NCBI RefSeq assembly: GCF_001028705.1
Contig: NZ_CP011771.1
Location: forward strand, 62,001 to 126,000
Length of the DNA: 64,000 bases
Origin: Croceicoccus naphthovorans
GTDB taxonomy: Bacteria; Pseudomonadota; Alphaproteobacteria; Sphingomonadales; Sphingomonadaceae
Direction: 5' to 3'
Part shown: piece after piece, positions 1-45,125 of the stretch
Numbering within the stretch: position 1 is the first letter of the stretch
How the letters are laid out: each line of letters begins with the position of its first letter
Program-made: the position numbers and the translations under genes
Notes under the pieces: generated by a model
Databases searched by the model: none
Seen by the model: only the letters and a program-made list of their open reading frames with translations
What the model was told of the DNA's origin: nothing

Positions 1-455
1 TCGGGCGCGAGTTCGAGGGCATTCAGCGCCACGGCAGAACCGAAGCTGTGAGCGACCACGATCGGCTTACGGGCATGACCGAACAAACCGAGCGCCTCGG
101 CGACCCCGATCATCTCGTGTCCGCGCGCCGTCATGTCGCAGTCGGGGCGCGGGTCGCTGTCGCCCATCCCGGACAGGTCATAGGCCACCAGGTGGTAATC
201 GCCCGCAAGAAACGGCGCAATGAAGGCGAAGCAGCGCGCGTGCGACAGGAATCCGTGGGTCATCAGCACCGGCGGCGCGCCCGGATTGCCCCAGCGGAAG
301 TAATGCATCCGCACCCCGTCGACCGTGACGAAACCTTCCTCGCGCGGAACAGCCAGGGCCTCGGCAAACCAGCCTGGCAGAACCGACGGGTCGGGCGCCC
401 ATTCAGGGACAATATCGGATGCAGCCGATTCCATGAGTTGCAATTCCCCGTTCAT
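1..455 (-). CDS. Alpha/beta hydrolase, N-terminal part (runs off the window)
   Basis: The visible 151 residues are the N-terminal half of an alpha/beta hydrolase. HGF at about residues 67-69 gives the oxyanion-hole region, a DLSGMGDSD strand-turn follows at about 93-101, and the nucleophile elbow AHSFG places the serine near residue 137; the first glycine of the classical GxSxG is alanine. The ATG overlaps the stop of the upstream Baeyer-Villiger monooxygenase as ATGA, so the two are translationally coupled. A reasonable inference is that it hydrolyses the ester or lactone made by that monooxygenase. The acid and histidine of the triad lie beyond the left edge. Confidence 0.85.
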   Translation of the reverse strand, partial: MNGELQLMESAASDIVPEWAPDPSVLPGWFAEALAVPREEGFVTVDGVRMHYFRWGNPGAPPVLMTHGFLSHARCFAFIAPFLAGDYHLVAYDLSGMGDSDPRPDCDMTARGHEMIGVAEALGLFGHARKPIVVAHSFGSAVALNALELAP

Positions 456-2059
456 GCCAGCGTGAAGCCCCGGTATCCGTTCGCCGCCACGTCGCTTATG
501 ATGTTCGAGTAACCCACCACGCTCGGGTAGTTTATCAGCTGCCGCGGCTTGCCTGGAATGTTGTCGCCCATGTACCAGGACTTGGCCCGGGGAAAGAGCG
601 TCATGGCCCCGATCGCGGCAACGCTTGCGGTCCATTCGCGCTCCGCTTCGGCTTCCGCTTCAAATCGCGTCAGACCGTTGTCGCACAGCTTCACCAGGAA
701 GTCCCGCAGCCAGTCGCCCTGGATTTCCGCCGCGGTCGGACCGTTGGAAAAGCCCGAGGGACTGAGCGGTCCGTACAGGTAGGCCAGGTTGGGAAAGCCG
801 TGGACGGCGGAGCCAAGATAGGCAGCCACCCCATCGCCCCAGGCATCTGCCAGGCTGCGATCGTCCCGGCCCCTGATCTCCATTTGCGTCAACCCGCCGC
901 TCCCGGCATCGAATCCGGTGGCGAACACGATCAGGTCGCATTCGATGAGGCCCTGTGCTGTGAGGATGCCCTCGGGCACGATGCCTTCGATGGGAGCCTG
1001 CTTGAGATCGACGAGCGAAACATTCCGCTGCGAGAAGATCTCGTAATAGTTCTGCTCTAGCGAAGGCCGCTTGGTCCCGAAGGGATGCGGCGGCTCGCTC
1101 GGCGCAAGGGACTCGTGTAAAGCCGGATCAGCAATCCGCGCCCGGGTCTTGTCGCGCCAGAAATCGTAGGCGTGACGGTTGGCCCGTTCGTCGGTCAGCA
1201 GATCGGCGAAATTGGCATACCAGAAACGCAAACCACCGGCCTGCCATTGCCTTTCGAACAGGTTTCGGCGTGTTTCCTCATCGACTGCGAGCGCGGAGGC
1301 TTCGACGCTGCCCACATCAAAGCCGCCGCTAGTTAACCGGCGGGCGTCAAAGATCGCCTCGTAATCGGCTTTCTCCCGCTCCTGCTGTTCCGCCGTCAGC
1401 ACTTTCTGCCGCATCGGCAGAGCGAGGATCGGGGTGCGTTGCAGCACGGTGAGATGCGCTGCCTCGGCTGCCGCTTCCTGCGCCACCTGGACTCCGCTGG
1501 CTCCGGTGCCGATGATTGCCACCTTGCGCCCGGCCATGGACAACCCCTCCTGCGGCCAGTGACCCGTGTGATGCCATTCGCCGGCAAAGGTTTCCAGTCC
1601 GGCGAGTTTGGGCACATGGGCTTTGGCGGCAAAGCCAAGACAGGGCAACAGATAGCGCGCCGTGATCGTTTCGCCCGAGCCGGTCGTGACCCGCCACTTG
1701 CGCCCGCCTTCTTCCCACGCCGCGCCTGTCATTCGGGTTCCCATTGTCATGTGGGGCCAAAGCGAAAGACGATCGCAGACATGGCGGAAATAGGCGCGCA
1801 ACTCGCGCCATCCGGGATAGCGTTCGCGCCAGGTCCAGTCGCGCCACAGTTCGGGCAGCGACAATTCGTACAGCGGAACCTGCGAATCGACCCGCGCGCC
1901 CGGATAGCAATTCCAGTACCAGATGCCGCCCGGAGCTTCGGCTGCATCGATCAGCCTGGCGTCGATGCCTGCCTCGCGCAGGCGGTGGAGCAGATATATC
2001 CCGCTGAACCCGGCGCCGACGATCAGCGCTTCGCAATCATCACTAGGCGTGCCGTTCAC
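452..2059 (-). CDS. Flavin-binding Baeyer-Villiger monooxygenase
   Basis: This 535-residue protein has the class B flavoprotein monooxygenase layout: an FAD Rossmann motif GAGFSG at about residues 15-20, the Baeyer-Villiger fingerprint FxGxxxHxxxWP at about 158-169 (FAGEWHHTGHWP), and an NADPH motif GTGASG at about 184-189. Members insert oxygen next to a ketone to give an ester or lactone. Translation most likely starts at a GTG that overlaps the stop of the upstream acyl-CoA synthetase (GTGA); the sequence further upstream in this frame is not protein-like. Length is close to cyclohexanone- and steroid-type enzymes. Substrate unknown; the adjacent hydrolase suggests lactone or ester opening. 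Confidence 0.9.
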   Translation of the reverse strand: MNGTPSDDCEALIVGAGFSGIYLLHRLREAGIDARLIDAAEAPGGIWYWNCYPGARVDSQVPLYELSLPELWRDWTWRERYPGWRELRAYFRHVCDRLSLWPHMTMGTRMTGAAWEEGGRKWRVTTGSGETITARYLLPCLGFAAKAHVPKLAGLETFAGEWHHTGHWPQEGLSMAGRKVAIIGTGASGVQVAQEAAAEAAHLTVLQRTPILALPMRQKVLTAEQQEREKADYEAIFDARRLTSGGFDVGSVEASALAVDEETRRNLFERQWQAGGLRFWYANFADLLTDERANRHAYDFWRDKTRARIADPALHESLAPSEPPHPFGTKRPSLEQNYYEIFSQRNVSLVDLKQAPIEGIVPEGILTAQGLIECDLIVFATGFDAGSGGLTQMEIRGRDDRSLADAWGDGVAAYLGSAVHGFPNLAYLYGPLSPSGFSNGPTAAEIQGDWLRDFLVKLCDNGLTRFEAEAEAEREWTASVAAIGAMTLFPRAKSWYMGDNIPGKPRQLINYPSVVGYSNIISDVAANGYRGFTLA

Positions 2060-3669
2060 CTCGCCGCGCCCTGGTTGATGGCGAAGTCCCTGACGGCGGC
2101 ATAGTCGGCCTTGCCGTTCGATGCGCGCAGTGCGATGCTGGCCAGATAGACCGCCTTCGGAGTCTTGTATCCGGCCAGTTGCTGGCGGACATGGGCCTTG
2201 AGGGTGGCCTCGTCGAAGTCGGCGCCGCCTTCCAGGATCACGACGCCGGTCACGGCTTGGCCCCATTTCTCGTCGGGTACGCCAACCACCAGGGCATCGG
2301 CTACCGACGGATGGGTCTTGAGCGCCTCCTCGACTTCTTCGGGATAGACCTTTTCCCCGGCGGTGTTGATGCAGACGCTGCCCCGCCCCAGCAGGGTCAG
2401 GCTGCCATCGGCCTCCACCTGGCACCAATCGCCGGGGATCGAGTAGCGCACACCAGCAATGGTCCGGAACGTCTTCGCGGACTTTTCGGGGTCCTTGTAA
2501 TAGCCCACCGGAATGGCGCCTTTGCGGGCAATGAATCCGGGGACTCCACTGCCAGCTATCACCTTGGCGTCGTTTTCGTCGAACACGTCGCAATGCTCGC
2601 CGATCACGAATTTCGCGGTCTGGACGGAACCCAGCGCAGTTGTCACCGAAAGGCCATAGCCGAGCCCCTCGGATGCACCGAAGGCATCCATCAGCGCGAC
2701 TTGGCGAATGTGCCGAACCAGCCCTTCCTTGACCTCGCGGCTCCACATGACGCCAGAAGAGACGATCGAGATCAGGCTCGAAGTATCGTAGCGCCCTGGA
2801 TCCTTGTCGAGCGCGGCGAGCATCGGCTTGGCGAAGGCATCGCCGACAATCGCGACCGACTGCACGCGGTGCTTTTCGACCGCATGCCACAACTCTTCGG
2901 CATCGAACGACGGGCTGTCGAGCGTGACGATGCAGCCGCCGGTCATCATGGTGCCCAGGGCGGAAAGCAGTCCGGTGCCATGCATCATCGGGCAGGCCGG
3001 AAGGAACACCCGGCCCGGCCCTTCGGCGGCCAGCATTGAGACGGCTTCGGCCATGTCCCGCGGCGCCGGACCAAGCAGGCTGGCGGAATCGAGTTGCGCC
3101 TGGCGCAGGTCATGATGGCGCCACATCACCCCCTTGGGCATGCCGGTGGTACCGCCAGTATAGATGAACAGCAAATCGTCGGGCGAGCGGGCTATGCCCA
3201 GCGGCGAACCATCGCCTTGTGTCGCCAGCGCCTCATAGGGTTCGGCAAATGGCGCGATTGCCGCCGGATCCCCGATTTCGACAAAGATCCGGACCTTGCC
3301 GAGCCGTTCTTTCAACTCGTCGATGCATTCGCGGAATTCGCTGCTGTAAACGATCACTTCGGCATCGGAATCGTCGAAGATGTAATGGACCTCGTCCGGC
3401 TTGTAGCGGTAGTTGATATTGACGTGGGTCAGCCGGGCCTTGAAGCAGGCGGCCATCGCCTCGCCATATTCGGGCCGGTTGCGCATGTAGAAGGCAACCT
3501 TGGCCCCAGGCTCGATCCCCCGGTCGCGCAACGCGCGGGCCATTTTGTTGGACCTCTCGCCCATTTCCGGCCAGGTGATACGCCGATCGCCGTGGATCAA
3601 TGCCGGGGCATCGGGCGGGAGCACCGGTTCGATGGCATCCAGAATATCGCCGAAATTCCACTCGGTCAT
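2056..3669 (-). CDS. Acyl-CoA synthetase (AMP-binding, FadD-like)
   Basis: This 537-residue protein belongs to the ANL adenylating superfamily. The phosphate-binding loop YTGGTTGMPKG lies at about residues 170-180, and the C-terminal catalytic lysine is in SNGKADY near residue 519. It would activate a carboxylic acid to its CoA thioester via an acyl-adenylate in the cytoplasm. It sits in the middle of the operon, 21 bp after the acyl-CoA dehydrogenase pair and overlapping the Baeyer-Villiger gene. The neighbours imply the acid enters a beta-oxidation-like sequence. Specificity cannot be read from the sequence. Confidence 0.92.
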   Translation of the reverse strand: MTEWNFGDILDAIEPVLPPDAPALIHGDRRITWPEMGERSNKMARALRDRGIEPGAKVAFYMRNRPEYGEAMAACFKARLTHVNINYRYKPDEVHYIFDDSDAEVIVYSSEFRECIDELKERLGKVRIFVEIGDPAAIAPFAEPYEALATQGDGSPLGIARSPDDLLFIYTGGTTGMPKGVMWRHHDLRQAQLDSASLLGPAPRDMAEAVSMLAAEGPGRVFLPACPMMHGTGLLSALGTMMTGGCIVTLDSPSFDAEELWHAVEKHRVQSVAIVGDAFAKPMLAALDKDPGRYDTSSLISIVSSGVMWSREVKEGLVRHIRQVALMDAFGASEGLGYGLSVTTALGSVQTAKFVIGEHCDVFDENDAKVIAGSGVPGFIARKGAIPVGYYKDPEKSAKTFRTIAGVRYSIPGDWCQVEADGSLTLLGRGSVCINTAGEKVYPEEVEEALKTHPSVADALVVGVPDEKWGQAVTGVVILEGGADFDEATLKAHVRQQLAGYKTPKAVYLASIALRASNGKADYAAVRDFAINQGAAR

Positions 3670-3690
3670 GGTCTTCTCTCCCGGTTGGCC

Positions 3691-4785
3691 CTACTGTGTC
3701 GTCGCTGTCAATCCCTGCAGTTGCGCCGCTTCATCCCTGACCCGCTCCGGTCCTCCCAGGACCTGACGGTCGAACCCGATCCGCTTGAACCAGAAATGCA
3801 GGCCCAGCAGGTCGGTAAAGCCCATGCCGCCGTGCACCTCGGTCGCGGTTCGCGCCACGAAACGGTGGACTTCGCCGGTGTGCGACTTGGCGTGGCAGGC
3901 CATCAGCGCCGCCTCGCCAGGGGCGGCGTCGAACGCGTGCGCGGCATACCACACCAGCGCCCGGCATGGCTCGTGCCGTGCGGCCATTTCCGCGCACATG
4001 TGCTTGACCGCCTGGAAGCTGCCGATGACCCGCCCGAACTGTTCGCGCTCCCCGGCATAGGCCACCGCCTTTTCGATCATCGCCTCTCCCGCGCCCAGGC
4101 TGTCCGCGGCAAGCAGGATCCGTCCGGCGTCGCGCAGCCGCCGCGCTGCGACGCCGCCGTCGCCGGCGAGCGGTTCGGCCGCCGCGCCGCTCAACCGCAG
4201 CTCGCCGACGCTGCGGGTGGCGTCGATCGTGTGCAAGGCAATCCGCTCGACTCCGTTCGCAGCGGCGTCAAGCAGATGCAGCCGCCCCGATTCGTCGGCC
4301 ACAATGAAATGGTCCGCGTCGGCAAAATCGAGTGCGAAGAGCGCGGTGCCGGTCAGCCCGGCGGATTCGGCGCGGACCTTCGCGCCGTCGCGCTCCTCGA
4401 CGATACCGGCGATGGCGACGCCGAACCGCACTTCGCCGGTCGCAATCCGGGGCAGCCATTGGGCCTGCTGCGCGGGCGATCCGGCCAGCACCAGCGCCAA
4501 GGGGGCGAGTACGCTCCGGGCCAGGAACGGGGCCGGCGCCACTGCCCGTCCGAGCTGTTCGGCAACCACCGCCGCATCGAGCAGGGTCATCCCCAGGCCG
4601 CCTTGCGCTTCGGGTACCATTAGCCCGGTCAGGCCGATGTCAGCAAGAGCGGCCATGACCCGATCGCTGGCCGCGCTGCCCGAATCCGCGCAGGCACGGA
4701 CGTGATCGAGCGGGCAGGTTTCTGCAAGGCAGCGCCCGACTGTTTCGCGGAGCATTTCCTGTTCGGGGGAAAGACCGAAATCCAT
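3691..4785 (-). CDS. Acyl-CoA dehydrogenase (second of a pair)
   Basis: A 364-residue acyl-CoA dehydrogenase-family flavoprotein starting MDFGLSPEQEML, shorter than the usual 380-400. It has the N-terminal helical domain, a middle beta domain and the C-terminal FAD-contacting region with MHGGMG-like EVHGGMGFT. The ATG overlaps the stop of the preceding, longer dehydrogenase by one base (TGATG). Adjacent divergent dehydrogenases of this kind, for example FadE28/FadE29 (ChsE1/ChsE2) of actinobacterial cholesterol side-chain degradation, form obligate heterotetramers. By analogy this subunit may form an alpha2beta2 enzyme with its neighbour, which is inference. It would introduce a trans-2 double bond into an acyl-CoA. 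Confidence 0.9.
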   Translation of the reverse strand: MDFGLSPEQEMLRETVGRCLAETCPLDHVRACADSGSAASDRVMAALADIGLTGLMVPEAQGGLGMTLLDAAVVAEQLGRAVAPAPFLARSVLAPLALVLAGSPAQQAQWLPRIATGEVRFGVAIAGIVEERDGAKVRAESAGLTGTALFALDFADADHFIVADESGRLHLLDAAANGVERIALHTIDATRSVGELRLSGAAAEPLAGDGGVAARRLRDAGRILLAADSLGAGEAMIEKAVAYAGEREQFGRVIGSFQAVKHMCAEMAARHEPCRALVWYAAHAFDAAPGEAALMACHAKSHTGEVHRFVARTATEVHGGMGFTDLLGLHFWFKRIGFDRQVLGGPERVRDEAAQLQGLTATTQ

Positions 4786-6008
4786 CAGGCGACTTCCTTC
4801 CTGCCGGATGAGGCTTCTTGCGCCAGGCGCGGCTCGCGCGGCATATTCAGCCCGCGTTCGGCAATGATGTTCTTCTGGATCTGCGCGGTGCCGCCGCCAA
4901 TGATGAGACCCAGCTGGAACATGTAGTTCCATTGCCAGGTGCCGCCTTCGCGCTGGCGCGGGCTATCCGCATAGAGGATGCCCATTTCACCCATCGTGTC
5001 GATCGCCAGGGCTGAGATCTGGTGCGCCAGTTCGCAGCTCTGGAGTTTGACGATCAGTTTGGCCATGCCGCCCGGCTCGCCCTTGATCTGGCCGGAAAGC
5101 ACCCGCATCCCGTTGTATTTCATCGCCGCGACTTCGGCCTGGAGGGCGATCAGTCGGTCGCGCAGCACCGGATTGTCGATCGCGCGGGCCGATCCTACCT
5201 GCTCCTCCTGCATCAGTCGGATCAGCGCCAGCAACCGGTTTTCCAAGGCATCGGGATCGCCCAGCATGCCGCGCTCATGACCGAGCGTCGCATTGGCGAC
5301 GAACCAGCCCTGGCCGCGCAGGCCGACGATCTGATCGACCGGCACCCGCACGTCGGTGAAGAACGTCTCGTTGAATTCGGCGTGCCCGGTCATCGTCTTG
5401 AGCGGGCAGACCTCGATCCCCGGCAGGTCCATCGGAAAGATCAGATAGGAGATGCCTGCGTGCTTTGGCGCTTCGGACTCGGTTCGCACCAGGCAGAAGA
5501 TCATGTCGGCCTGGCGCGCGGTGCTGGTCCAGATCTTCTGGCCGTTGATCACGAAATGCACGTTTTCCTCGCGGGCGCTGGTGCGCAGACTGGCCAGATC
5601 CGAACCGGCACCGGGTTCGGAGTAGCCCTGGCACCAGACCACTTCGCCGCGCAGCGTCGGTTCGATCCAACGGCGCTTCTGCTCTTCGGTGCCAAGTTCG
5701 AGCAGGGTTGGAACCAGCATCGAGATGCCTTGGTTCGACAGTCCGCCCGGCACACCCGCACGGGCGAATTCCTCGGCGATGATCCGCGCCTTGAGGATGT
5801 CTGGTTCGGCGCCGTAGCCGCCATATTCGCGCGGAATGGTCCGCGCGGTATAACCATGTTCCAGCAGCAGGTTCTGCCAGGCGACCGCCTCGGCCGAAGG
5901 CCGCGCTGCGCGGTTCGCCGAGTCCGGCGCAAGCTGCCCGTTGCGGTCCAGGAAATCCCGCACTTCGGCGCGGAAGCGCTCGTATTCGGGGCCATAGTCA
6001 AGGTTCAT
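4785..6008 (-). CDS. Acyl-CoA dehydrogenase (first of a pair)
   Basis: A 407-residue acyl-CoA dehydrogenase. The YSEPGAGSDLA segment near residue 130 and NGQKIWTS near residue 155 are the characteristic flavin and substrate-contacting stretches. Start chosen at [12 protein letters not shown], because its ATG overlaps the stop of the DUF35 gene (ATGA); the stop in turn overlaps the start of the second dehydrogenase. Electrons would leave through ETF. Its close coupling with a shorter paralogue supports a heteromeric enzyme, as known for steroid side-chain dehydrogenases. The acyl group is unknown. Confidence 0.92.
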   Translation of the reverse strand: MNLDYGPEYERFRAEVRDFLDRNGQLAPDSANRAARPSAEAVAWQNLLLEHGYTARTIPREYGGYGAEPDILKARIIAEEFARAGVPGGLSNQGISMLVPTLLELGTEEQKRRWIEPTLRGEVVWCQGYSEPGAGSDLASLRTSAREENVHFVINGQKIWTSTARQADMIFCLVRTESEAPKHAGISYLIFPMDLPGIEVCPLKTMTGHAEFNETFFTDVRVPVDQIVGLRGQGWFVANATLGHERGMLGDPDALENRLLALIRLMQEEQVGSARAIDNPVLRDRLIALQAEVAAMKYNGMRVLSGQIKGEPGGMAKLIVKLQSCELAHQISALAIDTMGEMGILYADSPRQREGGTWQWNYMFQLGLIIGGGTAQIQKNIIAERGLNMPREPRLAQEASSGRKEVA

Positions 6009-6481
6009 GGCCTGCGCCCTCCTTTCGCCGCCGGGCGGAACACTGGCAGCTGGAAATCGTCGCCCAGGGGCTCGAAGGCCAGTTCGACTGGCATGTCGAT
6101 TTCGACCTTGTCCCGGGCGCAGTCGATCAGCCGGCTTGCCATGCGGACCCCCTCCGCCAGCTCGACGACAACCGCGATGAACGGAATCTCGTCGGTAAAC
6201 GCGGGATGCAGCGCCTGGTGCGTGATGGTCCACGAAAACAGCGTGCCCGTGCCCGAGCTGGGCTGCCAGGCGAATTCGGGCGAGCCGCAACGCGCGCACA
6301 TGTAACGCGGCAAGTGGCGCCAGGTGCCGCAGGAGCTACAGCGCTGGAAATGCAATCGGCCATCCTGGCAGCGCTGCCAGAATTCCTGCTCGATCGGGTC
6401 CTGCGGGCGCGGACGCGGCTTGGCCGGCCGGACCTGTGCTTCGGGCCGCTGCTTGGGAGGAAGGTCGGCGTTGTCGCTCAT
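6005..6481 (-). CDS. Zn-ribbon / OB-fold DUF35 protein, thiolase partner
   Basis: A 158-residue protein with an N-terminal helical segment, a rubredoxin-like zinc ribbon (two CxxC pairs about 10 residues apart, CSSC and CARC, near residues 50-67) and a C-terminal OB fold. This is the DUF35 architecture. DUF35 proteins bind acyl-CoA and pair with thiolase-superfamily enzymes, including the Ltp2 retro-aldolase of steroid side-chain degradation. Both boundaries are ATGA overlaps, so it is coupled to the thiolase-fold gene upstream and the dehydrogenases downstream. It is probably an essential subunit of the thiolase-fold enzyme rather than a catalyst itself. Confidence 0.88.
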
Positions 6482-7653
6482 GCAAATCTCCGCAGGATGG
6501 CGATACTGCCATCGCCCAGATCGCCCCAGCCGGTGACCAAGCCGGTCCGGGCGTTTTCGACCTGCCGGTCGCCGCAATCGTGGCGCAGCTGCCGGACCGC
6601 CTCGACAACATGGTTGAGGCCCCAGACATGCGCCTCGCTGAGCAGTCCGCCATGAGTGTTGAGCGGAAAGCGCCCGCCGAGCTCGATCTGGCCGTCGCGG
6701 ACGAAATCGAGCTGCGCGCCCGGCTCGCAGTATCCCAGCGCTTCCAGCTGCACCAGGACGACATAGGTGAAGCAATCGTAGATCTGGAGAAAGTCCATAT
6801 CCTCGCGGGTCACTCCGGCCATCTCGAAGGCTTTGGGGGCAGCGTAGGAAAGCCCGATCTTGAACGGATCAGGACGCGAGGGAATATCGTCGGCCGGATA
6901 GGGGTGTCCTTCCGCCGCCCCGGCAATCGTCACCGGCACGTGGGGCATGTCACGGGCGCGGTCGATCCGGGAAACCACCACCGCGCAGGCTCCGTCGGTT
7001 TCAAGGCAACAGTCGTAAAGCCGGAACGGTTCCGATATCCAGCGCGATGACGCGTAAGTATCCCAATCGAGCGGGCGGCCATGGGTGAAGGCCTTGGGGT
7101 TGAGCTGGGCATGCTTGCGACAGGCCAGCGCCACCGCGCCCATCGCTTCTTCGCCAACCCCGAAAAGCCGCGAGTGCCGGGTCGCCAACCAGGCATACAT
7201 CTGCACCGGCAGAAATACGCCATAGGGAATGTAATAGCCCTGGATCGTATTGGTCAGCGTGGTCATGTTCATCGACCGGGTCGGCGGCGCGCCGGGCTTG
7301 GGGCGCAGCGCGGAAAACCCGTTCCAGCCAAGCGTCACAAGAACATGATCGCACAGGCCCGCCGCGATCGCCATGGCCGCGTTCTGCAGCGCTGTCGTCG
7401 GACTCGCGCCGCCCATGTGAACCGTCGCGGCATAGCGCAGTACGTCGATTCCCAGGTTGGCGGCCAGTTCCTCGGAGGTCGTGTAGATCGGCGGCGGAAC
7501 CATGCCGTCGATGTCGCCCGGCTTGAGCCCCGCGTCGGCGATCGCCCGGCGCGAGGCTTCGAGCATCATGTCGACCGCACTTCGCTCGGTGCCCTTGACG
7601 AAATCGGTCTCGCCGATACCAGTGATCGCGGCCTTGTCGGAAAATCCGGTCAC
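6478..7653 (-). CDS. Thiolase-superfamily protein of the lipid-transfer / Ltp2 aldolase type
   Basis: A 391-residue thiolase fold starting at GTG ([12 protein letters not shown]), preceded by a GGGGCGAGG ribosome-binding sequence and 14 bp after the upstream stop. The position of the usual nucleophilic cysteine reads [10 protein letters not shown] (about residues 80-89), so the cysteine is absent. YDCF at about 292-295 and NTHGG at about 332-336 are present. Loss of the cysteine, the YDCF tyrosine and the DUF35 partner are features of Ltp2-like retro-aldolases, which cleave a beta-hydroxyacyl-CoA side chain without thiolysis. A thiolase role is therefore unlikely; an aldol cleavage or related C-C cleavage is inferred. 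Confidence 0.85.
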
Positions 7654-7667
7654 GAGCCTCGCCCCGA

Positions 7668-8807
7668 TCAGCGAAAACGGCTGGCCAGCGCGAGCGCGCT
7701 TTCGGCATCGGCAACGAGATCCGCCAGGACTGCGGCAGCGGGACGCACGGCATGGATCAGACCAATGCCCTGTCCGGCAAAGCCGGGCAGGATATCCTTG
7801 CGCTTGGCCTCGATGCCGGCTGCCATGACCGGACCGGCGATCATCGACTGGTACGGCATCGGCAAGGGCTCCTTGCCGGCTGCGACCCAGGCGTCGGCCC
7901 ACTTGTTGCGGATCATCCGCGCGGGCTTGCCGGTGATCGACCGGCTGACCACGGTATCGGCATCGCCGCCCTCAACGATTGCCTCTTTCTGGAAATCCTC
8001 GATCCCCGCCTCTTCGGTGGCCAGGAACGCCGTGCCGACCCACGCGCCTTCGGCGCCGAGCATGAACGCAGCGGCCACACCGCGCCCGTCGGAAATGCCG
8101 CCCGCGCCCAGAACTGGCACGCGGTCGCCCACTGAATCGACCACCTGCGGGATCAGCGAAATTGTCCCGATCGGCGAATTGTGCCCGCCGCCGTCGTGGC
8201 CCTGGGCGACGATCATGTCGATCCCGCTTTCGACCACCTGCCGCGCGTGCTGGACCTTGCCGACCACCGCCATGACGACCGTTCCATTGGCGTGGAGCCT
8301 GTCCATCCACGGACCGGGGTTGCCAAGGCCTGCGGCATAGACCGGGACCTTTTCCTCGATCACCACTTCCATCTGGGCTTCGAAGAACTCTTTCGAGAAC
8401 AGTGGCGGCCCGCCCTCGGCATCGCGCCCGCCGATCGCCCGCCGTACCGCCTCGCCATCGGCACTGGCCAATCCTTCGCTGGCCATGAAATCTGCGGCAA
8501 ACTGGCGGTATTCGGCCGCCAGCGCCATCGGATCGGCGGGTGCTGCGCCGCTCTGCGGGGGCTTGCCCCGGCGTACCGAGGCCGGCAGCAGGGTATCGAC
8601 CCCGAAGGGCTTGTCGGTCAGTTTTCGGGTCTGGCGAATCCAGTCTCGCAGACGCTCGGGCGCGCAGGCTGCTGCACCCAGAACGCCAAGCCCGCCAGCA
8701 TTCGAAACCGCGGCCGCCAGCGCCGGCACGCTGGCCCCGCCCATCCCGGCGAGGACAATCGGGTATTCGATCTTCAGCATTTGGCAGATGCGGCTGTTCA
8801 GGGCCAT
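7668..8807 (-). CDS. Nitronate monooxygenase-family FMN protein
   Basis: A 379-residue TIM-barrel flavoprotein of the nitronate monooxygenase / 2-nitropropane dioxygenase family. The N-terminal [11 protein letters not shown], the central [10 protein letters not shown] carrying the conserved histidine, and the phosphate-binding [14 protein letters not shown] segment are all visible. Members oxidise nitronates, but many in catabolic operons have unassigned or enoyl-CoA-reductase-like functions. It is the first enzyme gene of the operon, 14 bp after the GntR gene. No evidence here points to a nitro substrate, so the molecular function is uncertain although the family is clear. Confidence 0.88.
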
Positions 8808-8821
8808 CGTTTCTCTCCCTT

Positions 8822-9607
8822 TCAGGTTTCCCGGTTTGCGTTCCCCCAGCGGACCTTTTGGGCGAGCAGTTCGGGACTGCGTTCGGCCAGGTATTGGGTC
8901 GATCCAGCAATCAGCCGGTCCATCTGGCGCCGCGCGCCGGCCACGTCACGCATCCGCACGGCATGAAGCACACGCCCCAGGCACCGCAACTGGGTGTCGC
9001 GCTCCTGGGCCGAATAGCCCAGGCCCACCGACATGCTGCGGGTCAGTAGGTGCAGCGCGGAAATCAGCAGGCCAAAGGTCGGGTTCCCGCTGGCCCAGCC
9101 CAGCAGGTCGTGAAATCGCCGGTTGGTTTCTTCGAATTGCGGACTTTCGCGTTCGCGCTCGAGCTGCGCCAGGCAACCCTCGAGCGCGGCAAGATCTGCG
9201 GCGGTGGCCATTTGCGCGGCCCTTGCCGCTACTGTCGGGGCAATCGCTTCGCGCAATTCGAGCAGCGCCTGGAGGTCCGCATCCATGAATTGCAGGATCA
9301 GCGCCATCGAGCTGGCGAAATCGGCGGTCTGGGGCCGGGCGACGACCGGTCCACCACCCCGACCCTTGGTGAGATGGATCACGCCTTGCAGTTCGAGAAA
9401 ACGCAGTGCTTCGCGCAGCGTCGCGCGCGCCACGTCGTAGCGCGCCAGCATGGCATCCTCGTGAAGCAGCCGGTCGCCCGGTCCTCGGGCGTTGCTCTCG
9501 ATATCCTCCACAATCTCGCGCGCCAGCACCAAGGCGCGCTTGGCCTTGGCCCGGCCCAAGCTTGCGGCAGCGGACGGATGGCGAGGGGAGGCGTGATCTG
9601 AGCGCAT
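8822..9607 (-). CDS. GntR/FadR-family transcriptional regulator
   Basis: A 261-residue GntR regulator. The winged helix-turn-helix covers about residues 30-90 (VARATLREALRFLELQGVI is the recognition region) and a FadR-type FCD effector domain follows, with the metal/ligand histidines in the RRFHDLL and later helices. Start taken at MRSDHASPR, because an earlier in-frame start would place the 9611-9634 palindrome inside the coding region. It is the first gene of the minus operon and diverges from the P450, so it probably represses both its own operon and the P450 unit and responds to an acyl-CoA or acid intermediate. Confidence 0.9.
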   Translation of the reverse strand: MRSDHASPRHPSAAASLGRAKAKRALVLAREIVEDIESNARGPGDRLLHEDAMLARYDVARATLREALRFLELQGVIHLTKGRGGGPVVARPQTADFASSMALILQFMDADLQALLELREAIAPTVAARAAQMATAADLAALEGCLAQLERERESPQFEETNRRFHDLLGWASGNPTFGLLISALHLLTRSMSVGLGYSAQERDTQLRCLGRVLHAVRMRDVAGARRQMDRLIAGSTQYLAERSPELLAQKVRWGNANRET

Positions 9608-9610
9608 GAT

Positions 9611-9634
9611 ATTCTGATAAGAATTTATCAGAAT
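9611..9634. promoter_or_regulatory. Palindromic operator candidate for the GntR regulator
   Basis: A perfect inverted repeat, ATTCTGATAA / TTATCAGAAT, with a 4-base GAAT spacer, lies 3 bp upstream of the GntR start codon. Symmetry, size and position fit a FadR/GntR operator controlling the divergent promoters. Confidence 0.7.
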
Positions 9635-9700
9635 TCTGTCAATCACCACGCATGAGATCGCTCATACTGGGAACCTTGCATGTTAATCTGATCCTATTTA

Positions 9701-9729
9701 TTGACCGACTTGCCATTTGTCTCTACCAT
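9701..9729 (+). promoter_or_regulatory. Candidate sigma-70 promoter of the P450 unit
   Basis: TTGACC and TACCAT are separated by 17 bp and end 32 bp before the P450 start codon. This is a reasonable -35/-10 match, but it has not been tested. Confidence 0.35.
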
Positions 9730-9761
9730 CCCCGGCGCAGACCGAGGTGTAAGAGGCGGCC

Positions 9762-11039
9762 ATGACCACACTGACGATAAGCCCTGACCAGGATAGCGCG
9801 GAATTGTCCCGGTTCGTTGCCGGAATCCCGCTTGCGGAAATCGACGTTTCCCGCCCAAGCCTGTTCCAGAGCGACAAGATCGGAGCCTTCTTCGAGCGGC
9901 TGCGGCGCGAGGATCCGGTTCATTACTGCGCCGAAAGCTCCTACGGACCCTACTGGTCGATCACCCGATACGACGACATCATGGCGGTCGACACCAACCA
10001 CAAGGTCTATTCCTCCGAAGCCAAGCTCGGCGGAATCGCAATCCAGGACATGCACCGCGACCAGAGCAATCTTGAGCTCGAGATGTTCATCGCGATGGAC
10101 CAGCCCAAGCACGATGCCCAGCGCAAGGCGGTGACGCCGGCAGTGGCGCCATCCAACCTGCTGCTGCTCGAACCGGTGATCCGCGAGCGCGCCGGCGCGA
10201 TTCTCGATGCGCTGCCGGTTGGCGAGGAGATCGACTGGGTGAAATGCGTCTCGGTCGAACTGACCACCATGACGCTGGCGACACTGTTTGACTTTCCCTG
10301 GGACGAGCGGGCGCGCCTGACCCGCTGGTCGGACGTCACGACCGCCATTCCGGGAGCGGGAATTGTCGATTCCTTCGAACAGCGCCGCGCCGAGCTGATC
10401 GAGTGCGCGATGTACTTCAAGGGGCTGTGGGACCAGCGGATCGATCAGCCGGAGGGGAACGACCTGATTTCGATGATGGCCAATTCGCCCGCCACGCGCG
10501 ACATGCCGTTCCTTGAGTTTCTGGGCAACCTGCTGCTCTTGATCGTCGGTGGTAACGATACCACCCGCAATTCGATCAGCGGCGGCGTCCTGGCGCTGAA
10601 CCGGCACCCCGACCAGTATGACAAGCTAAGGCGCGATCCCGCCGTGATCAGCAGCATGGTGCCGGAAATCATCCGCTGGCAGACCCCGCTCACCCACATG
10701 CGCCGAACCGCGCTTGAGGATAGCGAGATCGGCGGCAAGCGCATCGCCAAAGGTGACAAGGTGGTGATGTGGTACCTCTCGGGCAACCGCGACGAAACGG
10801 CGATCGACCGACCTGAAGAGTTCATCATCGACCGCAAGAATCCCCGCCAGCACCTTTCGTTCGGCTATGGCATCCATCGCTGCATGGGCAACCGCCTGGC
10901 CGAACTGCAATTGCGGATCATCTGGGAGGAAATCCAGAAGCGTTTTGACTTCGTCGAGGTGGTGGGTGAGCCCGAGCGACTCCTGTCGAACCTCGTTCGC
11001 GGCATCACCCGCCTACCGGTCAAGCTTCACGCGCATTGA
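9762..11039 (+). CDS. Cytochrome P450, CYP153 family
   Basis: A 425-residue soluble P450. The I-helix GGNDTTRN is at about residues 263-270, the ExxR motif is EIIR, and the haem loop FGYGIHRCMGN puts the ligand cysteine at about 374. Long stretches match remembered CYP153A sequences (AMDQPKHDAQRK, LFDFPWDERA, RWSDVTTA). CYP153 enzymes hydroxylate terminal methyl groups of alkanes, alicyclics and terpenes. The downstream ferredoxin would supply electrons. Its promoter faces the GntR gene across the 9611-9634 palindrome, so it is probably induced with the minus-strand operon and makes the first oxidised product. Confidence 0.93.
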   Translation: MTTLTISPDQDSAELSRFVAGIPLAEIDVSRPSLFQSDKIGAFFERLRREDPVHYCAESSYGPYWSITRYDDIMAVDTNHKVYSSEAKLGGIAIQDMHRDQSNLELEMFIAMDQPKHDAQRKAVTPAVAPSNLLLLEPVIRERAGAILDALPVGEEIDWVKCVSVELTTMTLATLFDFPWDERARLTRWSDVTTAIPGAGIVDSFEQRRAELIECAMYFKGLWDQRIDQPEGNDLISMMANSPATRDMPFLEFLGNLLLLIVGGNDTTRNSISGGVLALNRHPDQYDKLRRDPAVISSMVPEIIRWQTPLTHMRRTALEDSEIGGKRIAKGDKVVMWYLSGNRDETAIDRPEEFIIDRKNPRQHLSFGYGIHRCMGNRLAELQLRIIWEEIQKRFDFVEVVGEPERLLSNLVRGITRLPVKLHAH

Positions 11040-11067
11040 TTTGCACGCCAAGGGAAAGTCAGATCCC

Positions 11068-11394
11068 ATGATCAAGGTCACATTTGTAGCTCACGATGGC
11101 CGCAAGCTCCGCGTCGAAATCGGCGAGGGTTTGACGGCGCGAGAAGCGGCGCTGTTCAACGACGTTCCCGGCATCGACGGCGATTGCGGCGGCCAGTGCG
11201 CCTGTGCGACATGCCACGTCCAGGTCGATCCAGCCTGGATCGACCTGGTCGGGCGCCTTGCGGATGACAGTATGGAAGCCGATCTGCTCCAGTTTGCCGA
11301 AGGGACCACGGCGGAAAGCCGCCTTGCCTGCCAGATCAGGCTCGACGCACGGCTTGACGGACTTGTCCTCCATGTTCCGGAGCAACAATACTGA
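11068..11394 (+). CDS. [2Fe-2S] ferredoxin, putidaredoxin type
   Basis: A 108-residue adrenodoxin/putidaredoxin-type ferredoxin. Cluster cysteines are at about 40, 46 and 49 (GDCGGQCACATC) and 88 (RLACQI), with an additional cysteine at 44 that family members usually lack. It lies 28 bp after the P450 in the same direction and is the likely direct electron donor. CYP153 operons usually also carry a ferredoxin reductase; none follows here, since the next gene is convergent. Confidence 0.92.
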   Translation: MIKVTFVAHDGRKLRVEIGEGLTAREAALFNDVPGIDGDCGGQCACATCHVQVDPAWIDLVGRLADDSMEADLLQFAEGTTAESRLACQIRLDARLDGLVLHVPEQQY

Positions 11395-12220: not shown

Positions 12221-13543
12221 TCAAAAAAATCGGTTGCCGGGGCGCGGCAAACCGAAATGATCGCGCAGGGTGGTTCCTTCGTAGTCCTTGCGGAAAATGC
12301 CCCGGCGCTGCAATTCGGGCACGACCAGATCGACGAAATCGTCGAGCCCCGCCGGCAGATAGGGGAACATCACGACGAACCCGTCCGAACCGCGCTCCTC
12401 CAGCCATTGCTCCATCTCGTTGGCAATCGAATCCGGAGTGCCGACGAAGGCGAGCCCGGCATAGCTGCCGGCTTTCGCGGCGAGCTGGCGGATCGTGAGG
12501 TTGTGCTGCCGGGCTTGCGTGACCAGCATTTCACGAGAAGTCTTGCTGGCGTTGGTATCGGGTATCTCGGGGAGGGGGCCATCGGGGTCGAACCCCGAAA
12601 CATCATGATCGAGCATGCCGCACAGCGAGTGAATCCCGCTTTCATAGTGAACTAAGCTGTCCAGGTGAGCGCGCTTGGCCTTGGCCTGCTCGACCGTGTC
12701 ACCGACAACGACGAGCGCGGCGGGCAGGATCTTGAGATGATCGGGATTGCGTCCGATCGGGATCATCCGCCCTTTCACATCGGAATAAAAGCTCTTGGCG
12801 GCGGCAAGATTCGAAGCGGCGGCAAAGACGACTTCGGCGGTTTCGGCGGCAAGCTGGCGTCCGGGATCCGAGGCCCCAGCCTGGAAGATGACCGGCCAGC
12901 CCTGCGGGGGGCGGGCGATGTTGAGCGGACCGAGGACCGAGAAATGCGGCCCTCTGTGATCGAGCACGTGCATCCGCGCGGGATCGAAGTAGATGCCGCT
13001 TTCCGCATCGCAGACGAAGGCGTCTTCCGCGAAGCTGTCCCACAGGCCAGTCACGACGTCGTAGAATTCGCGGGCGCGTCCGTAGCGTCCGGAATGATCG
13101 GGCTGCACCTCGAACCCGAAATTCTTCGCGCTGTCGGGGTTGGACGTGGTCACGACGTTCCAGCCGGCCCGCCCGCCGCTGATGTGATCGAGTGAGGCAA
13201 AGCGGCGCGCGACGTGAAAGGGTTCGTCGAAGGTGGTGGAAGCGGTCGCGACCAGCCCGATCCGTTCAGTCGCGCCGGCCAGCGCCGACAGCAGGGTGAA
13301 GGGTTCGAACGAGGTGACGGTGTGGCTGCGGCGCAGCGCCTCGACCGGCATGTTCAGAACACCGAGATGATCGGCCATGAAAAAGGCATCGAACTTGCCC
13401 GCCTCGAGCTTGCGGGCGAATTGACGGATCGCGGCGAAGTTGAAATTCGCATCCGGGATTGCCCCGGGGTAGCGCCAGGCGCCGGTATGGATGCTGACCG
13501 GCCGCATGAACGCGCCGAGGTGAAGCTGGCGTTGCTGGCTCAT
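12221..13543 (-). CDS. FMN-dependent monooxygenase, NtaA/SnaA/DszA type (LLM class)
   Basis: A 440-residue luciferase-like flavin monooxygenase. LHLGAFMRPVSIHTGAWR at the start, FMADHLG near residue 50 and the ASTTFDEPFHVARRFASLD stretch are typical of the nitrilotriacetate / pristinamycin synthase / dibenzothiophene-sulfone monooxygenase group. Such enzymes use FMNH2 from a separate NADH:FMN reductase; none is encoded nearby. Start chosen at MSQQRQLH after a GAACGAAACGC leader. It shares an operon with a sugar-acid-type dehydrogenase and a DapA-family aldolase. Substrate unknown. Confidence 0.88.
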   Translation of the reverse strand: MSQQRQLHLGAFMRPVSIHTGAWRYPGAIPDANFNFAAIRQFARKLEAGKFDAFFMADHLGVLNMPVEALRRSHTVTSFEPFTLLSALAGATERIGLVATASTTFDEPFHVARRFASLDHISGGRAGWNVVTTSNPDSAKNFGFEVQPDHSGRYGRAREFYDVVTGLWDSFAEDAFVCDAESGIYFDPARMHVLDHRGPHFSVLGPLNIARPPQGWPVIFQAGASDPGRQLAAETAEVVFAAASNLAAAKSFYSDVKGRMIPIGRNPDHLKILPAALVVVGDTVEQAKAKRAHLDSLVHYESGIHSLCGMLDHDVSGFDPDGPLPEIPDTNASKTSREMLVTQARQHNLTIRQLAAKAGSYAGLAFVGTPDSIANEMEQWLEERGSDGFVVMFPYLPAGLDDFVDLVVPELQRRGIFRKDYEGTTLRDHFGLPRPGNRFF

Positions 13544-38371: not shown

Positions 38372-39403
38372 CTATGCCGCGCGTGTGGAAACGAGATCGA
38401 GCGCGACATCGACGATCATGTCTTCCTGCCCCCCGACCATCCGGCGCTTGCCCAGTTCGATCAGGATTTCGCGCGTATCCAGCCCATACTGTTCGGCGGC
38501 CTTTTCCGCGTGGCGCAGGAAGCTCGAATAGACCCCGGCATAGCCCAGGCTCAGCGTTTCGCGATCCACGCGCACCGGGCGGTCCTGCAGCGGACGGATG
38601 ATGTCCTCCGCCGCGTCCATCAGCGCCATCACGTCGCAGCCATGGTTCCAGCCCTTGCGGTCGGCGGCGGCGACGAACACCTCGAGCGGCGCGTTGCCGG
38701 CCCCTGCTCCCATTCCGGCAAGGCTCGCATCGATCCGCACCGCACCCTCCTGGGCCGCGACGATCGAATTGGCGACGCCAAGGCTGAGGTTGTGGTGGGC
38801 GTGCATGCCGCGCTGTGTTTCCGGCTTGAGCACGCGGTCATAGGCCCGCAGGCGATCGCGCACCCCGTCCATGTCGAGTGCGCCGCCGCTGTCGGTCACA
38901 TAAACGCAATGCGCCCCATAGCTTTCCATCAGCAGGGCCTGCTGTGCCAGCGCCTCGGCATCGATCATGTGGCTCATCATCAGAAAGCCCGAGACATCCA
39001 TGCCGAGGTCTCGGGCAATGCCGATATGCTGCTTGGCGACGTCGGCTTCGGTGCAATGGGTCGCGACCCGGACCGAACGCACCCCAAGCGCATAGGCGCG
39101 GCGAAGTTCCTCGACCGTGCCGATACCCGGCACCAGCAATGTGGTCAGCACGGAGTTCCTGATCACGTCGGCGGCGGCTTCGATCCATTCCCAGTCGGTA
39201 TGGGCGCCGAACCCGTAATTGAACGAGGTGCCGTTGAGGCCATCGCCGTGCGACACCTCGATCGCATCGACGCCGGCATCGTCCAGCGCCTTGGCAATGG
39301 TGCGGACACTGTCGGTGCCATACATGTGAAGAATGGCATGCATGCCGTCACGCAGGGTGACGTCCTGGATGTAGAGCTTACCGGTTTCGGGGTTGAAGGT
39401 CAT
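38372..39403 (-). CDS. xylK: 4-Hydroxy-2-oxovalerate aldolase
   Basis: A 343-residue class II pyruvate aldolase of the DmpG/BphI type. [10 protein letters not shown] near the N-terminus carries the metal-binding aspartate, and HAHHNLSLG near residue 200 the histidine ligands; the C-terminal helical communication domain ([12 protein letters not shown]) is present. It splits 4-hydroxy-2-oxovalerate into pyruvate and acetaldehyde and channels the aldehyde to the dehydrogenase XylQ. Its ATG overlaps the xylQ stop. Confidence 0.95.
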
Positions 39404-40338
39404 GCTGCCACCTTTTCGAGGTGCTGTTGGGCCAGACGCTCACCCGCTGCCTTGGCGGCGGCGGTCATGATGTCGAGATTGCCGGAATACTTCGGAAGAT
39501 AGTCGCCAGCGCCCTCGACCTCGAGGAACACGCTGGTCTTCAGGCCGACGAATTCGCCGTAGCCGGGGATCTTCAGCGGCCGGTTGGAGCCGAACGGTTC
39601 GAACTGCACTTCCTGCTTGAGGCGATAGCCGGGCACATAGGCTTGCACGGTCTCGACCATTTCCTTAACCGAGGCGCGGATAGCCTCCTCGTCCACCTGA
39701 TCGGTAAGCGTGAAGATCGTATCACGCATGATCATCGGCGGTTCGGCGGGATTGAGGATGATGATCGCCCGGCCGCGGCCGGCACCGCCCACTATCTCGA
39801 TCGCCTTCGCGGTGGTCCGGGTGAATTCGTCGATGTTCGCGCGGGTGCCGGGCCCGGCAGACCGCGAGGACACCGACGCGACGATTTCAGCGTAATGAAC
39901 GGGGGTCACCCGCGAAACCGCGGCGACAATGGGAATGGTCGCCTGACCGCCGCAGGTGACCATGTTGACATTGCGGATTTCGCTGTCGAGCACTCCGCCG
40001 ACCGGCGGGACAAAAAACGGCCCGATCGCGGCAGGGGTCAGATCGACAACCAGCTTGCCGTCGGCTTGCAGGGCCGCATCGTGTTCCTTGTGGGCGTAGG
40101 CCGAAGTCGCATCGAATGCGATGCCAATCTCGGGGTAGGCCGACAGCTTGCGCAGCCCTTCAATACCCTCATGGGTTGTCGCCACGCTGCGTTCGCGGGC
40201 CATGGCGAGGCCTTCCGAGGCCGGGTCGATCCCGACCACCGCCGCCAGTTCAAGGGTATCGGACCCCTTGAGCAGCTTGATCATCAAATCGGTACCAATG
40301 TTTCCGGAGCCGATAATGGCGCACTTCATCTTGGTCAT
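39400..40338 (-). CDS. xylQ: Acetaldehyde dehydrogenase (acylating)
   Basis: A 312-residue enzyme of the DmpF/BphJ type. The NAD motif [10 protein letters not shown] is at the N-terminus, and the catalytic cysteine is in [12 protein letters not shown] near residue 130. It converts acetaldehyde, NAD and CoA to acetyl-CoA, physically associated with the aldolase encoded next. Start chosen at [10 protein letters not shown]; longer frames upstream are not protein-like. Confidence 0.95.
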
Positions 40339-40363
40339 TCTTCGATCTCTCCGTTCATCTGCG

Positions 40364-41176
40364 TCAGCCGACCTCGGCAGCGAAAGCCGCCCGCACCGTT
40401 CCGACGCCATTGATTCTCGCTTCCACGACATCGCCGCGCGCGATCCCGGCCATTGGCCCGAGCGCACCGGACAGGATCACGTCGCCTTCAAGCAGCGGGC
40501 GTCCGACCCGGGCCATCACCCGCGCCAGCCACAGCGATGCGGTGATCGGGCTGCCGAGGCAGGCAATCCCCGCCCCCACGGAGATCGGCTCGCCCTTTAC
40601 CTCCATCACCATGCCGCATTCGCGCAGGTCGAGCGCTTCGAGCTTGCGCGGCACCGCACCCAGCACGAACAGCCCGCTCGAGGCGTTGTCGGCGACGGTG
40701 TCCCAGATGCGGATGTCCCAGTTGGCAACGCGGCTATCGACGATCTCGATCGCGGGTACGACATATTCGACCGCACGGATCATCTCGGCGGTGGTGAGAT
40801 CGGGATAAGGCAGATCACGGCCGACGACGATCGCGATTTCGGCCTCGACCTTGGGCTGGATGACCTGATCGAGCGAGATCGGAATCCCCTCGGGCACGTC
40901 CATGTCGGAAAACAGCATGCCGTAATCGGGCTGGTCGACGCCAAGCTGGCGCTGGACCGCCACCGAGGTCAAGCCGATCTTGCGGCCGACCAGGCGCCGT
41001 CCGCTGTCAAGGGCGTGCCGGGTGTTGATTTCCTGCACGGCGTAGGCGGCATCCACCCCGCCAGCCGAAATGAGATCGCGGATCGGCGCCACCGGCTTGC
41101 CGCTGGCAGCCGCGCCCCGTAATTGCTCGGCCGCCTGCTGGATGGCCATGGGATCGATCTTGGTTTCAGTCGTCAT
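40364..41176 (-). CDS. xylJ: 2-Hydroxypenta-2,4-dienoate hydratase
   Basis: A 270-residue MhpD/XylJ-type hydratase: [24 protein letters not shown] with the metal glutamates, and [16 protein letters not shown]. It hydrates 2-hydroxypentadienoate to 4-hydroxy-2-oxovalerate. It lies 4 bp after xylG and 25 bp before xylQ. It is a distant paralogue of xylI in the same operon. Confidence 0.9.
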
Positions 41177-41180
41177 GGTC

Positions 41181-42665: not shown

Positions 42666-42718
42666 GGGCTCTTCCATTCTCCGTAGCGTCTTGTTTCAAT
42701 GCCGCGATGGCCGGACGC

Positions 42719-43150: not shown

Positions 43151-43152
43151 GC

Positions 43153-44076: not shown

Positions 44077-44095
44077 TTCAGTTCTCCTTGTCCCT

Positions 44096-44947: not shown

Positions 44948-45060
44948 GGCTCTCCCGATCAATTGTCAACAGCTTTTTGCCGGTTGCCTTGCCTGTCATC
45001 GCGACAGGCAAAGCTCACAACTCTCGCGTTCATCCGGTTTCTCGTTATTGCACCAACCAG

Positions 45061-45081: not shown

Positions 45082-45125
45082 TGATTCAACTCCATCACAT
45101 CATGCCGGAAGTCGGCCTGTCCGGC

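Follow-up and report, generated by a model that had tools for sequence, protein, structure and literature searches.

A conserved gene module of Croceicoccus naphthovorans with a predicted thiolase-fold aldolase, CYP153 and a Baeyer-Villiger monooxygenase

What would a bacterium do with a CYP153-type cytochrome P450, a Baeyer-Villiger monooxygenase (BVMO) and a set of coenzyme A (CoA) enzymes encoded side by side? The question is raised by one end of a 64,000-nucleotide stretch of the genome of Croceicoccus naphthovorans (NZ_CP011771.1, positions 62,001 to 126,000; hereafter the window). Here nine genes lie head to tail on the minus strand, in the order GntR regulator, NMO/FabK-like flavoprotein, Ltp2-like thiolase-fold protein (hereafter the Ltp-like protein), DUF35 protein, large and small acyl-CoA dehydrogenases (ACADs), CoA ligase, BVMO and alpha/beta hydrolase. 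The CYP153 and ferredoxin genes are transcribed divergently from GntR on the plus strand. From GntR to the hydrolase the intergenic gaps are 14, 14, -4, -4, -1, 21, -4 and 17 bases, so that the Ltp-like and DUF35 genes overlap, as do those of the two ACADs. Judging from the protein families, we put at about one in two the probability that this module takes the last two carbons off an acyl chain that is beta-branched and probably alicyclic, and goes on to break the ketone thereby exposed.

Conservation and distribution of the module

The row was compared across 83 loci, comprising the best 80 of 296 Ltp-like relatives in our genome collection, two plasmid loci and the window. In 72 of these all nine genes, including both ACADs, are arranged alike in order and strand, a figure which overstates the independent evidence because the 80 are the nearest of the 296 and include near-duplicates; CYP153 is present as well in 64. 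The 11 incomplete loci show no change of order, and nine of them are short (3.3 to 17.4 kb). Such an arrangement is far from chance and the row is a conserved module. A search of gene neighbourhoods for such an order was proposed in the first-pass annotation of this DNA.

Hosts include members of the Sphingomonadaceae, Sphingopyxidaceae, Erythrobacteraceae, Hyphomonadaceae and Chelatococcaceae, together with the Roseovarius bin Lab_640_Diesel. The Ltp-like gene also occurs, at 90-96% identity, on four named plasmids, and the gene row is present in all four regions. Based upon an Ltp search at E <= 1e-100, 24 of 396 genomes of the host's order, the host included, bear the module; at E <= 1e-90, with more distant relatives counted, Ltp matches were found in 17 of 385 genomes at the level of the class and in 5 of 398 at that of the phylum. 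The window itself is part of a 194,680-base contig, which is likely a plasmid; open reading frames beside the window look, by eye, like plasmid transfer genes. Apparently this catabolic module is often plasmid-borne and has spread horizontally.

Among 20 more distant loci a BVMO match at 1e-8 was present in seven, namely L134, L140, L147, L150 and L151 (40-63% identity) and L136 and L137 (27%). Four of them (L134, L140, L147 and L151, at 40-58%) are differently built loci which pair a BVMO with Ltp and DUF35 genes. In Rhodococcus DMU1 (L110) two BVMO copies (38%) are separated from the Ltp gene by approximately 10 and 13 kb.

The thiolase-fold protein and its predicted DUF35 partner

Among PDB entries the Ltp-like protein matches 6ok1_A best (142/357 identities); this is taken here to be TcLtp2, since the numbering of Tyr294 and Tyr344 in PMC12329534 agrees with it. 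In a HMMER alignment Gly82 lies opposite the nucleophilic Cys of thiolase 7yvy (in the MAFFT residue table the 7yvy row is displaced three columns at this site). This Gly, in the motif HMGGAS, is found in all 83 loci, as are the YDCF motif (Tyr292-Asp-Cys294-Phe in the window protein), His342 at the position of TcLtp2 Tyr344, and a separate DUF35 protein with the C4 zinc ribbon CX2CX10CX2C. SCP2-type thiolases have a nucleophilic Cys in the N-terminal half, which the Ltp-like protein lacks, and a plain thiolase was therefore rejected. It had been called cysteine-less beforehand; this is correct for the nucleophile position in 83 of 83 loci, but the Cys of YDCF is retained in every one of them.

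PMC12329534 describes CtSal of Comamonas testosteroni as releasing acetyl-CoA by a retro-aldol reaction, using Tyr302 and Cys304 of a YDCY motif, with Gly replacing the thiolase nucleophile. Activity was abolished in Y302F and was undetectable in C304A/S; TcLtp2 uses Tyr294 of YDHF and Tyr344. The module protein shares with CtSal and its partner CtShyDUF35, a bile-acid side-chain aldolase (PMC12329534), the thiolase fold, a Gly where thiolases have their nucleophile, the Tyr/Cys dyad of YDC(Y/F) which typifies Sal and, by prediction, a DUF35 partner and the release of acetyl-CoA. It differs in that its DUF35 is separate with a C4 ribbon and no MaoC match, whereas the CtShy DUF35 is fused to a MaoC hydratase and has a C3H1 finger; in His342 in place of CtSal Gln352; in an identity of 120/381 to 9myr (taken as CtSal because of its YDCY motif); and in its gene neighbours. 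With TcLtp2-ChsH2, which acts on the C3 side chain of steroids, it shares the level of identity given above, the catalytic Tyr of YDxF and the C4 zinc ribbon in DUF35. Unlike TcLtp2, it has YDCF rather than YDHF, His342 rather than a second catalytic Tyr344, no MaoC hydratase and a separate place in the tree, where branches are long. The likeness to steroid side-chain aldolases reported in the first-pass annotation is supported; the residue pattern makes the protein neither an Ltp2 nor a Sal, yet the important residues of Sal are kept.

In a tree of 35 rows the window sequence falls in a clade of 16 which also includes one Rhodococcus sequence (support 100/99). It lies among other Ltp-like rows and apart from the single Sal reference, although the deep forks are weaker and CtSal and TcLtp2 are long-branched. 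The host's chromosomal paralogue and the Ltp of Novosphingobium EMRT-2 are of the residue type AGGN/YDCF/Tyr. Structure prediction of the Ltp-like protein from a 12-row alignment was unusable (predicted local distance difference test 33, predicted template modelling score 0.28).

The cytochrome P450

Members of CYP153A share more than 55% identity with a CYP153A, and the window P450 qualifies by its identity to CYP153A7 as well as by its heme motif (Table 1). Its CYP153 score is far above those for CYP125/124/142. It resembles the CYP153A alkane hydroxylases (CYP153A7, 3rwl) in sequence and in its adjacent ferredoxin gene; unlike them, it is tied to a predicted retro-aldol/BVMO operon. This tie, already suspected at the outset, is strengthened by two other arrangements. 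On Sphingobium cloacae plasmid pSCLO_2 the P450 (83%) and ferredoxin (76%) genes occupy a site within the operon that is flanked by the BVMO and hydrolase genes, and in L151 a P450 of 57% identity follows the BVMO. Within the host genome the next match to the window CYP153 is 37% identical, and no AlkB match passes 1e-60.

BVMO, dehydrogenases and the NMO-like flavoprotein

Type I BVMOs are recognized by the fingerprint FxGxxxHxxxW(P/D) and two nucleotide-binding motifs; the window protein possesses FAGEWHHTGHWP, GAGFSG and GTGASG. Its nearest solved structure is 6jdk (57% identity), which we take to be a Parvibaculum BVMO acting on cyclic ketones. A Parvibaculum BVMO has been used on cyclohexanone (PMC8751089, PMC11318132).

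The gene between GntR and the Ltp-like gene was overlooked in the first-pass annotation, the members of whose gene list are all real, present at the coordinates given there and supported by Pfam matches above the curated cut-offs. Its product scores 238.9 bits against Pfam NMO (cut-off 28) and so belongs to that family, and 245.5 bits against NCBIfam FabK, which is below the cut-off of 453. Enoyl reductases of the FabK type are among its best matches in the PDB, together with a putative nitroalkane dioxygenase. This flavoprotein may perhaps serve in ring dehydrogenation or reduction. An NMO-family protein, an ACAD pair and a ligase together resemble the IpdC/IpdE1-IpdE2/FadD3 set, which acts in the degradation of steroid rings C and D; the module differs in having no IpdAB and in the identity, 29-43%, to the similar genes of EMRT-2.

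Two-subunit ACADs are encoded by adjacent large and small genes, and their products depend on each other; the overlapping pair of the window may be of this type. In many loci of Erythrobacteraceae and Hyphomonadaceae (L057-L072 and others) a second, distant ACAD pair, approximately 31-34% and 36-38% identical, is encoded beyond the P450 and ferredoxin genes.

Proposed pathway

CYP153 and its ferredoxin would hydroxylate the terminal methyl group of a hydrophobic substrate, for example an n-alkylcycloalkane. Alcohol and aldehyde dehydrogenases of the host would oxidize the product to an acid, and ordinary beta-oxidation would trim an even-numbered chain as far as the ring-acetic acid. The ligase would then form the CoA ester and the ACAD pair would introduce an alpha,beta double bond. 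A hydratase, encoded with the module in some relatives and presumably supplied by the host here, would yield a tertiary 3-hydroxyacyl-CoA, which could not be oxidized to a 3-keto acid. The Ltp-like protein and DUF35 are predicted to cleave this by a retro-aldol reaction, with Tyr292 as base and Cys294 as acid, to a cyclic ketone and acetyl-CoA. The BVMO would convert the ketone to a lactone, which the hydrolase would open to a hydroxy acid. This proposal, in which the retro-aldol ketone feeds the BVMO, extends what the first-pass annotation offered. From the families involved, a BVMO and a hydrolase seem to be just what the ketone arising from ligase, ACADs, hydratase and retro-aldolase would need next.

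Ring-acetic acids, formed from alkylcycloalkanes via cyclohexylacetate-type acids, are likely the best-fitting substrates, beta-methyl-branched alkanes being the main rival; the ring compound would be hard to degrade and probably derived from oil. The alicyclic or branched compound initially proposed remains the best guess. Enzymology on Arthrobacter, from about 1982, reportedly revealed conversion of cyclohexylacetyl-CoA to cyclohexanone and acetyl-CoA. That route reportedly has the steps predicted here, namely a CoA ester, dehydrogenation, hydration, a lyase yielding cyclic ketone and acetyl-CoA, and Baeyer-Villiger ring opening; it differs in the organism, and the substrate of the module is a prediction. 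We know of no genes for the Arthrobacter route. One paper lists cyclohexaneacetic acid as a product of even-chain alkylcyclohexanes in seven oil-field strains (PMC10837267), another reports that Rhodococcus aetherivorans BCP1 did not degrade it (PMC5906575), and a third, in 2015, termed its pathway in Cupriavidus KUA-1 largely unknown (PMC4547698).

The hydration step was surveyed with one crotonase and one Coq4-like protein as queries. A crotonase match is divergent from GntR in nine of the 83 loci, and a Coq4-family gene (PF05019) lies between the NMO-like and Ltp-like genes in 38 (e.g. L058:9306-9998); in none do both occur. Crotonases were also found near distant Ltp and DUF35 pairs in L151 (78% to the L050 crotonase), L139 (51%) and Rhodococcus DMU1 (46%), and L134 has an MFE-2/MaoC hydratase nearby. 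The host genome has seven crotonase matches, the best of which (35%, C1:957540) immediately precedes the chromosomal Ltp gene. Since crotonases are found at the loci of relatives, hydration is likely a step of the pathway whose gene is not fixed in the module. The claim that a MaoC hydratase is missing thus stands for the module and fails for L134, while other related loci have a crotonase instead. That the Coq4-like protein is a substitute hydratase is only an idea. A distant Coq4-like gene is also present in the host's chromosomal cluster described below and in that of EMRT-2.

Several observations weigh against this pathway, in addition to the sampling of the 83 loci. Loci L043 and L073, at 21 kb each, have no BVMO or hydrolase match. 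At 1e-8 no BVMO match was obtained in 13 of the 20 distant loci, including L133 (Ltp 78%), L135 (71%), L138 (62%, short) and L139 (60%), so the Ltp/DUF35 pair also works elsewhere in a BVMO-free setting, and in L136 and L137 the 27% match is the sole one. CYP153 has no match in eight of the 72 complete loci, the short L099 and seven 21-kb loci (L047, L048, L050-L053 and L055) where a crotonase occupies the place of the P450. The window's module contains no hydratase gene and no Pfam MaoC match, and 36 of the 83 loci, the window included, have neither a crotonase nor a Coq4-like match. The NMO-like protein is left unexplained by the scheme. According to PMC3368416, neither cyclohexanone nor cycloalkanes supported growth of P. 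lavamentivorans, an organism with three putative BVMO genes. Finally, AlkB is not enriched in module-bearing genomes (1/24, versus 29/396 overall).

On a plasmid of Sphingopyxis fribergensis an apparent alk operon (L172:890-14584; regulator, reductase, alkane monooxygenase, rubredoxin, dehydrogenases, OmpW-family protein and ligase) adjoins the module. Given the lack of AlkB enrichment, this may be chance.

Alternative interpretations

The same enzymology might serve acyclic compounds, that is, beta-methyl-branched (isoprenoid or anteiso) alkanes. A 3-hydroxy-3-methylacyl-CoA would be split into a methyl ketone and acetyl-CoA, the BVMO would form an acetate ester and the hydrolase would release the alcohol. 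The predicted aldolase requires merely a tertiary beta-hydroxyl, and 5j7x, third among the BVMO's PDB matches (496 bits), is, we believe, an enzyme of aliphatic ketones. In Dietzia CN-3, according to PMC12472514, expression and a disruption mutant link CYP153 to the use of pristane and hexadecane, and one BVMO gene is up-regulated on both. Two points tell against this: the closer 6jdk presumably acts on cyclic ketones, and ACAD pairs with an NMO-family gene also occur in the steroid-ring-like clusters of Novosphingobium EMRT-2 and the host chromosome. We regard an acyclic substrate as conceivable but doubtful.

It is unlikely that the genes form no single pathway at all, the Ltp-like protein being, for instance, a condensing or decarboxylating enzyme while CYP153 and the BVMO carry out ordinary terminal or subterminal alkane oxidation. 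One might argue as much from the fact that the function of the Ltp-like protein is read from its residue pattern, and from DUF35-type partners, which true thiolases have as well, benzoylsuccinyl-CoA thiolase being an example (7pxp_C is among the PDB matches listed, and the DUF35 protein has an NCBIfam BbsA match below cut-off). Replacement of the nucleophilic Cys by Gly and retention of the CtSal dyad at every locus argue otherwise, as does conservation of the operon as a unit.

The remaining possibility is that a C2 or C3 side chain is cleaved from a steroid or polycyclic terpenoid to give a 17-ketone-like compound, which the BVMO would convert to a D-ring lactone. In its favour are the PDB entry that the Ltp-like protein matches best, of the steroid-aldolase type, and a cluster on the host chromosome (G000:C1:926407-964060; L170, L171, L005) with IpdA/B-, IpdC-, ACAD-, crotonase-, Ltp-, DUF35- and Coq4-like genes at 930-964 kb. 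It matches a plasmid cluster of Novosphingobium EMRT-2 and has its own crotonase-Ltp-DUF35 row; the Ipd names, like the label steroid-type, are assumptions of ours. Counterparts of the NMO, ACAD pair, Coq4-like, crotonase, Ltp, DUF35 and ligase genes of the module or its relatives are found in these clusters, and at 24-43% identity a shared ancestry is possible. IpdA-like genes are also over-represented in module-bearing genomes (6/24 versus 2.3 expected, P = 0.019, uncorrected for kinship).

The same comparison also speaks against steroids. Identities to the EMRT-2 counterparts are low, at 41% (Ltp), 37% (DUF35), 35% and 31% (ACADs), 29% (ligase), 33% (crotonase), 24% (Coq4) and 43% over 160 residues (NMO). 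The chromosomal cluster of the host, separate from the module, has an Ltp gene of its own, which is of the other residue type. An IpdA-like gene is absent at E 1e-60 from 18 of the 24 module-bearing genomes. HsaD is a steroid marker, and the best score in the host genome is 208.8 bits against a family cut-off of 400. Neither the MaoC hydratase nor the steroid ring genes of actinobacterial igr-type clusters accompany the module, as first described. On co-occurrence, P450 type and HsaD, steroid side-chain cleavage was rejected as the main role; a steroid role for the module is unlikely, and this account is the least probable of the three.

A review (PMC8399759) calls the sphingomonad pathway for bile-acid side chains unknown and says that these bacteria lack homologues of Sal and Ltp2. 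In view of that gap, the chromosomal crotonase-Ltp-DUF35 row is a candidate for it.

Features, regulation and neighbouring genes

The features of the locus are collected in Table 1. Families were assigned by Pfam matches, using curated cut-offs, and by NCBIfam profiles.

Table 1. Predicted genes and sites of the module in the window
Feature	Position	Strand	Evidence
Alpha/beta hydrolase, 319 residues, predicted to act on the ester or lactone made by the BVMO	1..434 (N-terminal 144 residues; gene cut by window edge; full gene G000:C2:61475-62434)	-	Pfam Abhydrolase_6 1.2e-19 (full protein); AHSFG nucleophile elbow; 17 bases after BVMO
Type I Baeyer-Villiger monooxygenase, 535 residues	452..2059	-	FAGEWHHTGHWP and GxGxxG motifs; top PDB match 6jdk_A, 302/527 identities
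Acyl-CoA synthetase (CoA ligase), 537 residues	2056..3669	-	NCBIfam PRK07798, 695 bits (cut-off 543)
Small acyl-CoA dehydrogenase, 364 residues	3691..4785	-	Pfam Acyl-CoA_dh_1 and _N; nearest NCBIfam IpdE2 and PimD, both below cut-off
Large acyl-CoA dehydrogenase, 407 residues	4785..6008	-	Pfam Acyl-CoA_dh_M, N, 1; NCBIfam PimC 216 bits, below cut-off
Stand-alone DUF35 protein (zinc ribbon and OB fold), 158 residues, predicted aldolase partner	6005..6481	-	Pfam OB_ChsH2_C, zf-ChsH2; CX2CX10CX2C
Ltp2/Sal-like thiolase-fold protein, 391 residues, predicted retro-aldolase	6478..7653	-	Thiolase_C_1 3.9e-45; top PDB match 6ok1_A; Gly82, Tyr292/Cys294, His342
NMO/FabK-like flavin mononucleotide oxidoreductase, 379 residues	7668..8807	-	Pfam NMO 1.2e-70
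GntR/FCD regulator, 261 residues, first gene of the row	8822..9607	-	Pfam FCD 3.2e-19, GntR 3.3e-8; 14 bases to NMO gene
Candidate operator, perfect 10-bp inverted repeat, 4-base spacer	9611..9634	.	Three bases upstream of GntR start
CYP153 cytochrome P450, 425 residues	9762..11039	+	266/ca. 406 identities to CYP153A7; heme motif FGYGIHRCMG
[2Fe-2S] ferredoxin, 108 residues, presumed P450 partner	11068..11394	+	Pfam Fer2 1e-8; Cys at 40, 44, 46, 49, 88

The inverted repeat upstream of GntR is a candidate operator, through which the regulator may control its own gene; the search gave this one match, and none in 100 shuffled sequences. It is not among the repeats listed for eight other loci, a listing in which the nearest relative, L030, does not figure. 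No general operator emerged from 79 upstream regions, in which seven palindrome patterns occur in at most 24 and the commonest 10-base word in 33.

Beyond the alpha/beta hydrolase gene lies one for a NUDIX hydrolase (L003:18075-18860; G000:C2:60575-61360), a relative of which accompanies the module in 40 of the 83 loci, nearby on one side or the other and on either strand. On the other side, at 12221-13543 of the window, a luciferase-like flavin monooxygenase (Bac_luciferase 2e-48) is encoded, which recurs at one locus of the 83, L030.

Ordinary aromatic degradation genes occupy 38372-50599, including those for catechol 2,3-dioxygenase, 2-hydroxymuconic semialdehyde dehydrogenase, 4-hydroxy-2-oxovalerate aldolase, acetaldehyde dehydrogenase, two ring-hydroxylating dioxygenase large subunits, a PdxA-like protein, a glutathione S-transferase and an HsaD/BphD-like hydrolase below both cut-offs. 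The whole window gave no matches when scanned with Rfam (gathering scores) and for tRNA genes.

Implications

Every part of the module belongs to a known family; the residue set of the aldolase and the fixed association of CYP153 with Ltp/DUF35 and BVMO set it apart as a variant. The first-pass annotation knew of no described pathway with this set, and our literature search, with most subscription papers outside its reach, likewise returned no description of the combination. We would tentatively suggest, with less assurance than attaches to the general scheme, that these are the first genes of an alicyclic-acetic-acid route, a mobile operon in which an aldolase of a new class (Tyr/Cys/His site, stand-alone DUF35) would convert cycloalkylacetyl-CoA to a ring ketone and acetyl-CoA and pass the ketone to a dedicated BVMO and hydrolase. 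If this is true, the thiolase-fold aldolases would have a third type of active site, Tyr/Cys/His. The cyclohexaneacetic acid step would gain genes which could be counted in metagenomes from oil spills and tailings, and oil-exposed alphaproteobacteria would be able to get past cyclohexylacetic acid, the endpoint for some degraders of alkylcyclohexanes and naphthenic acids.

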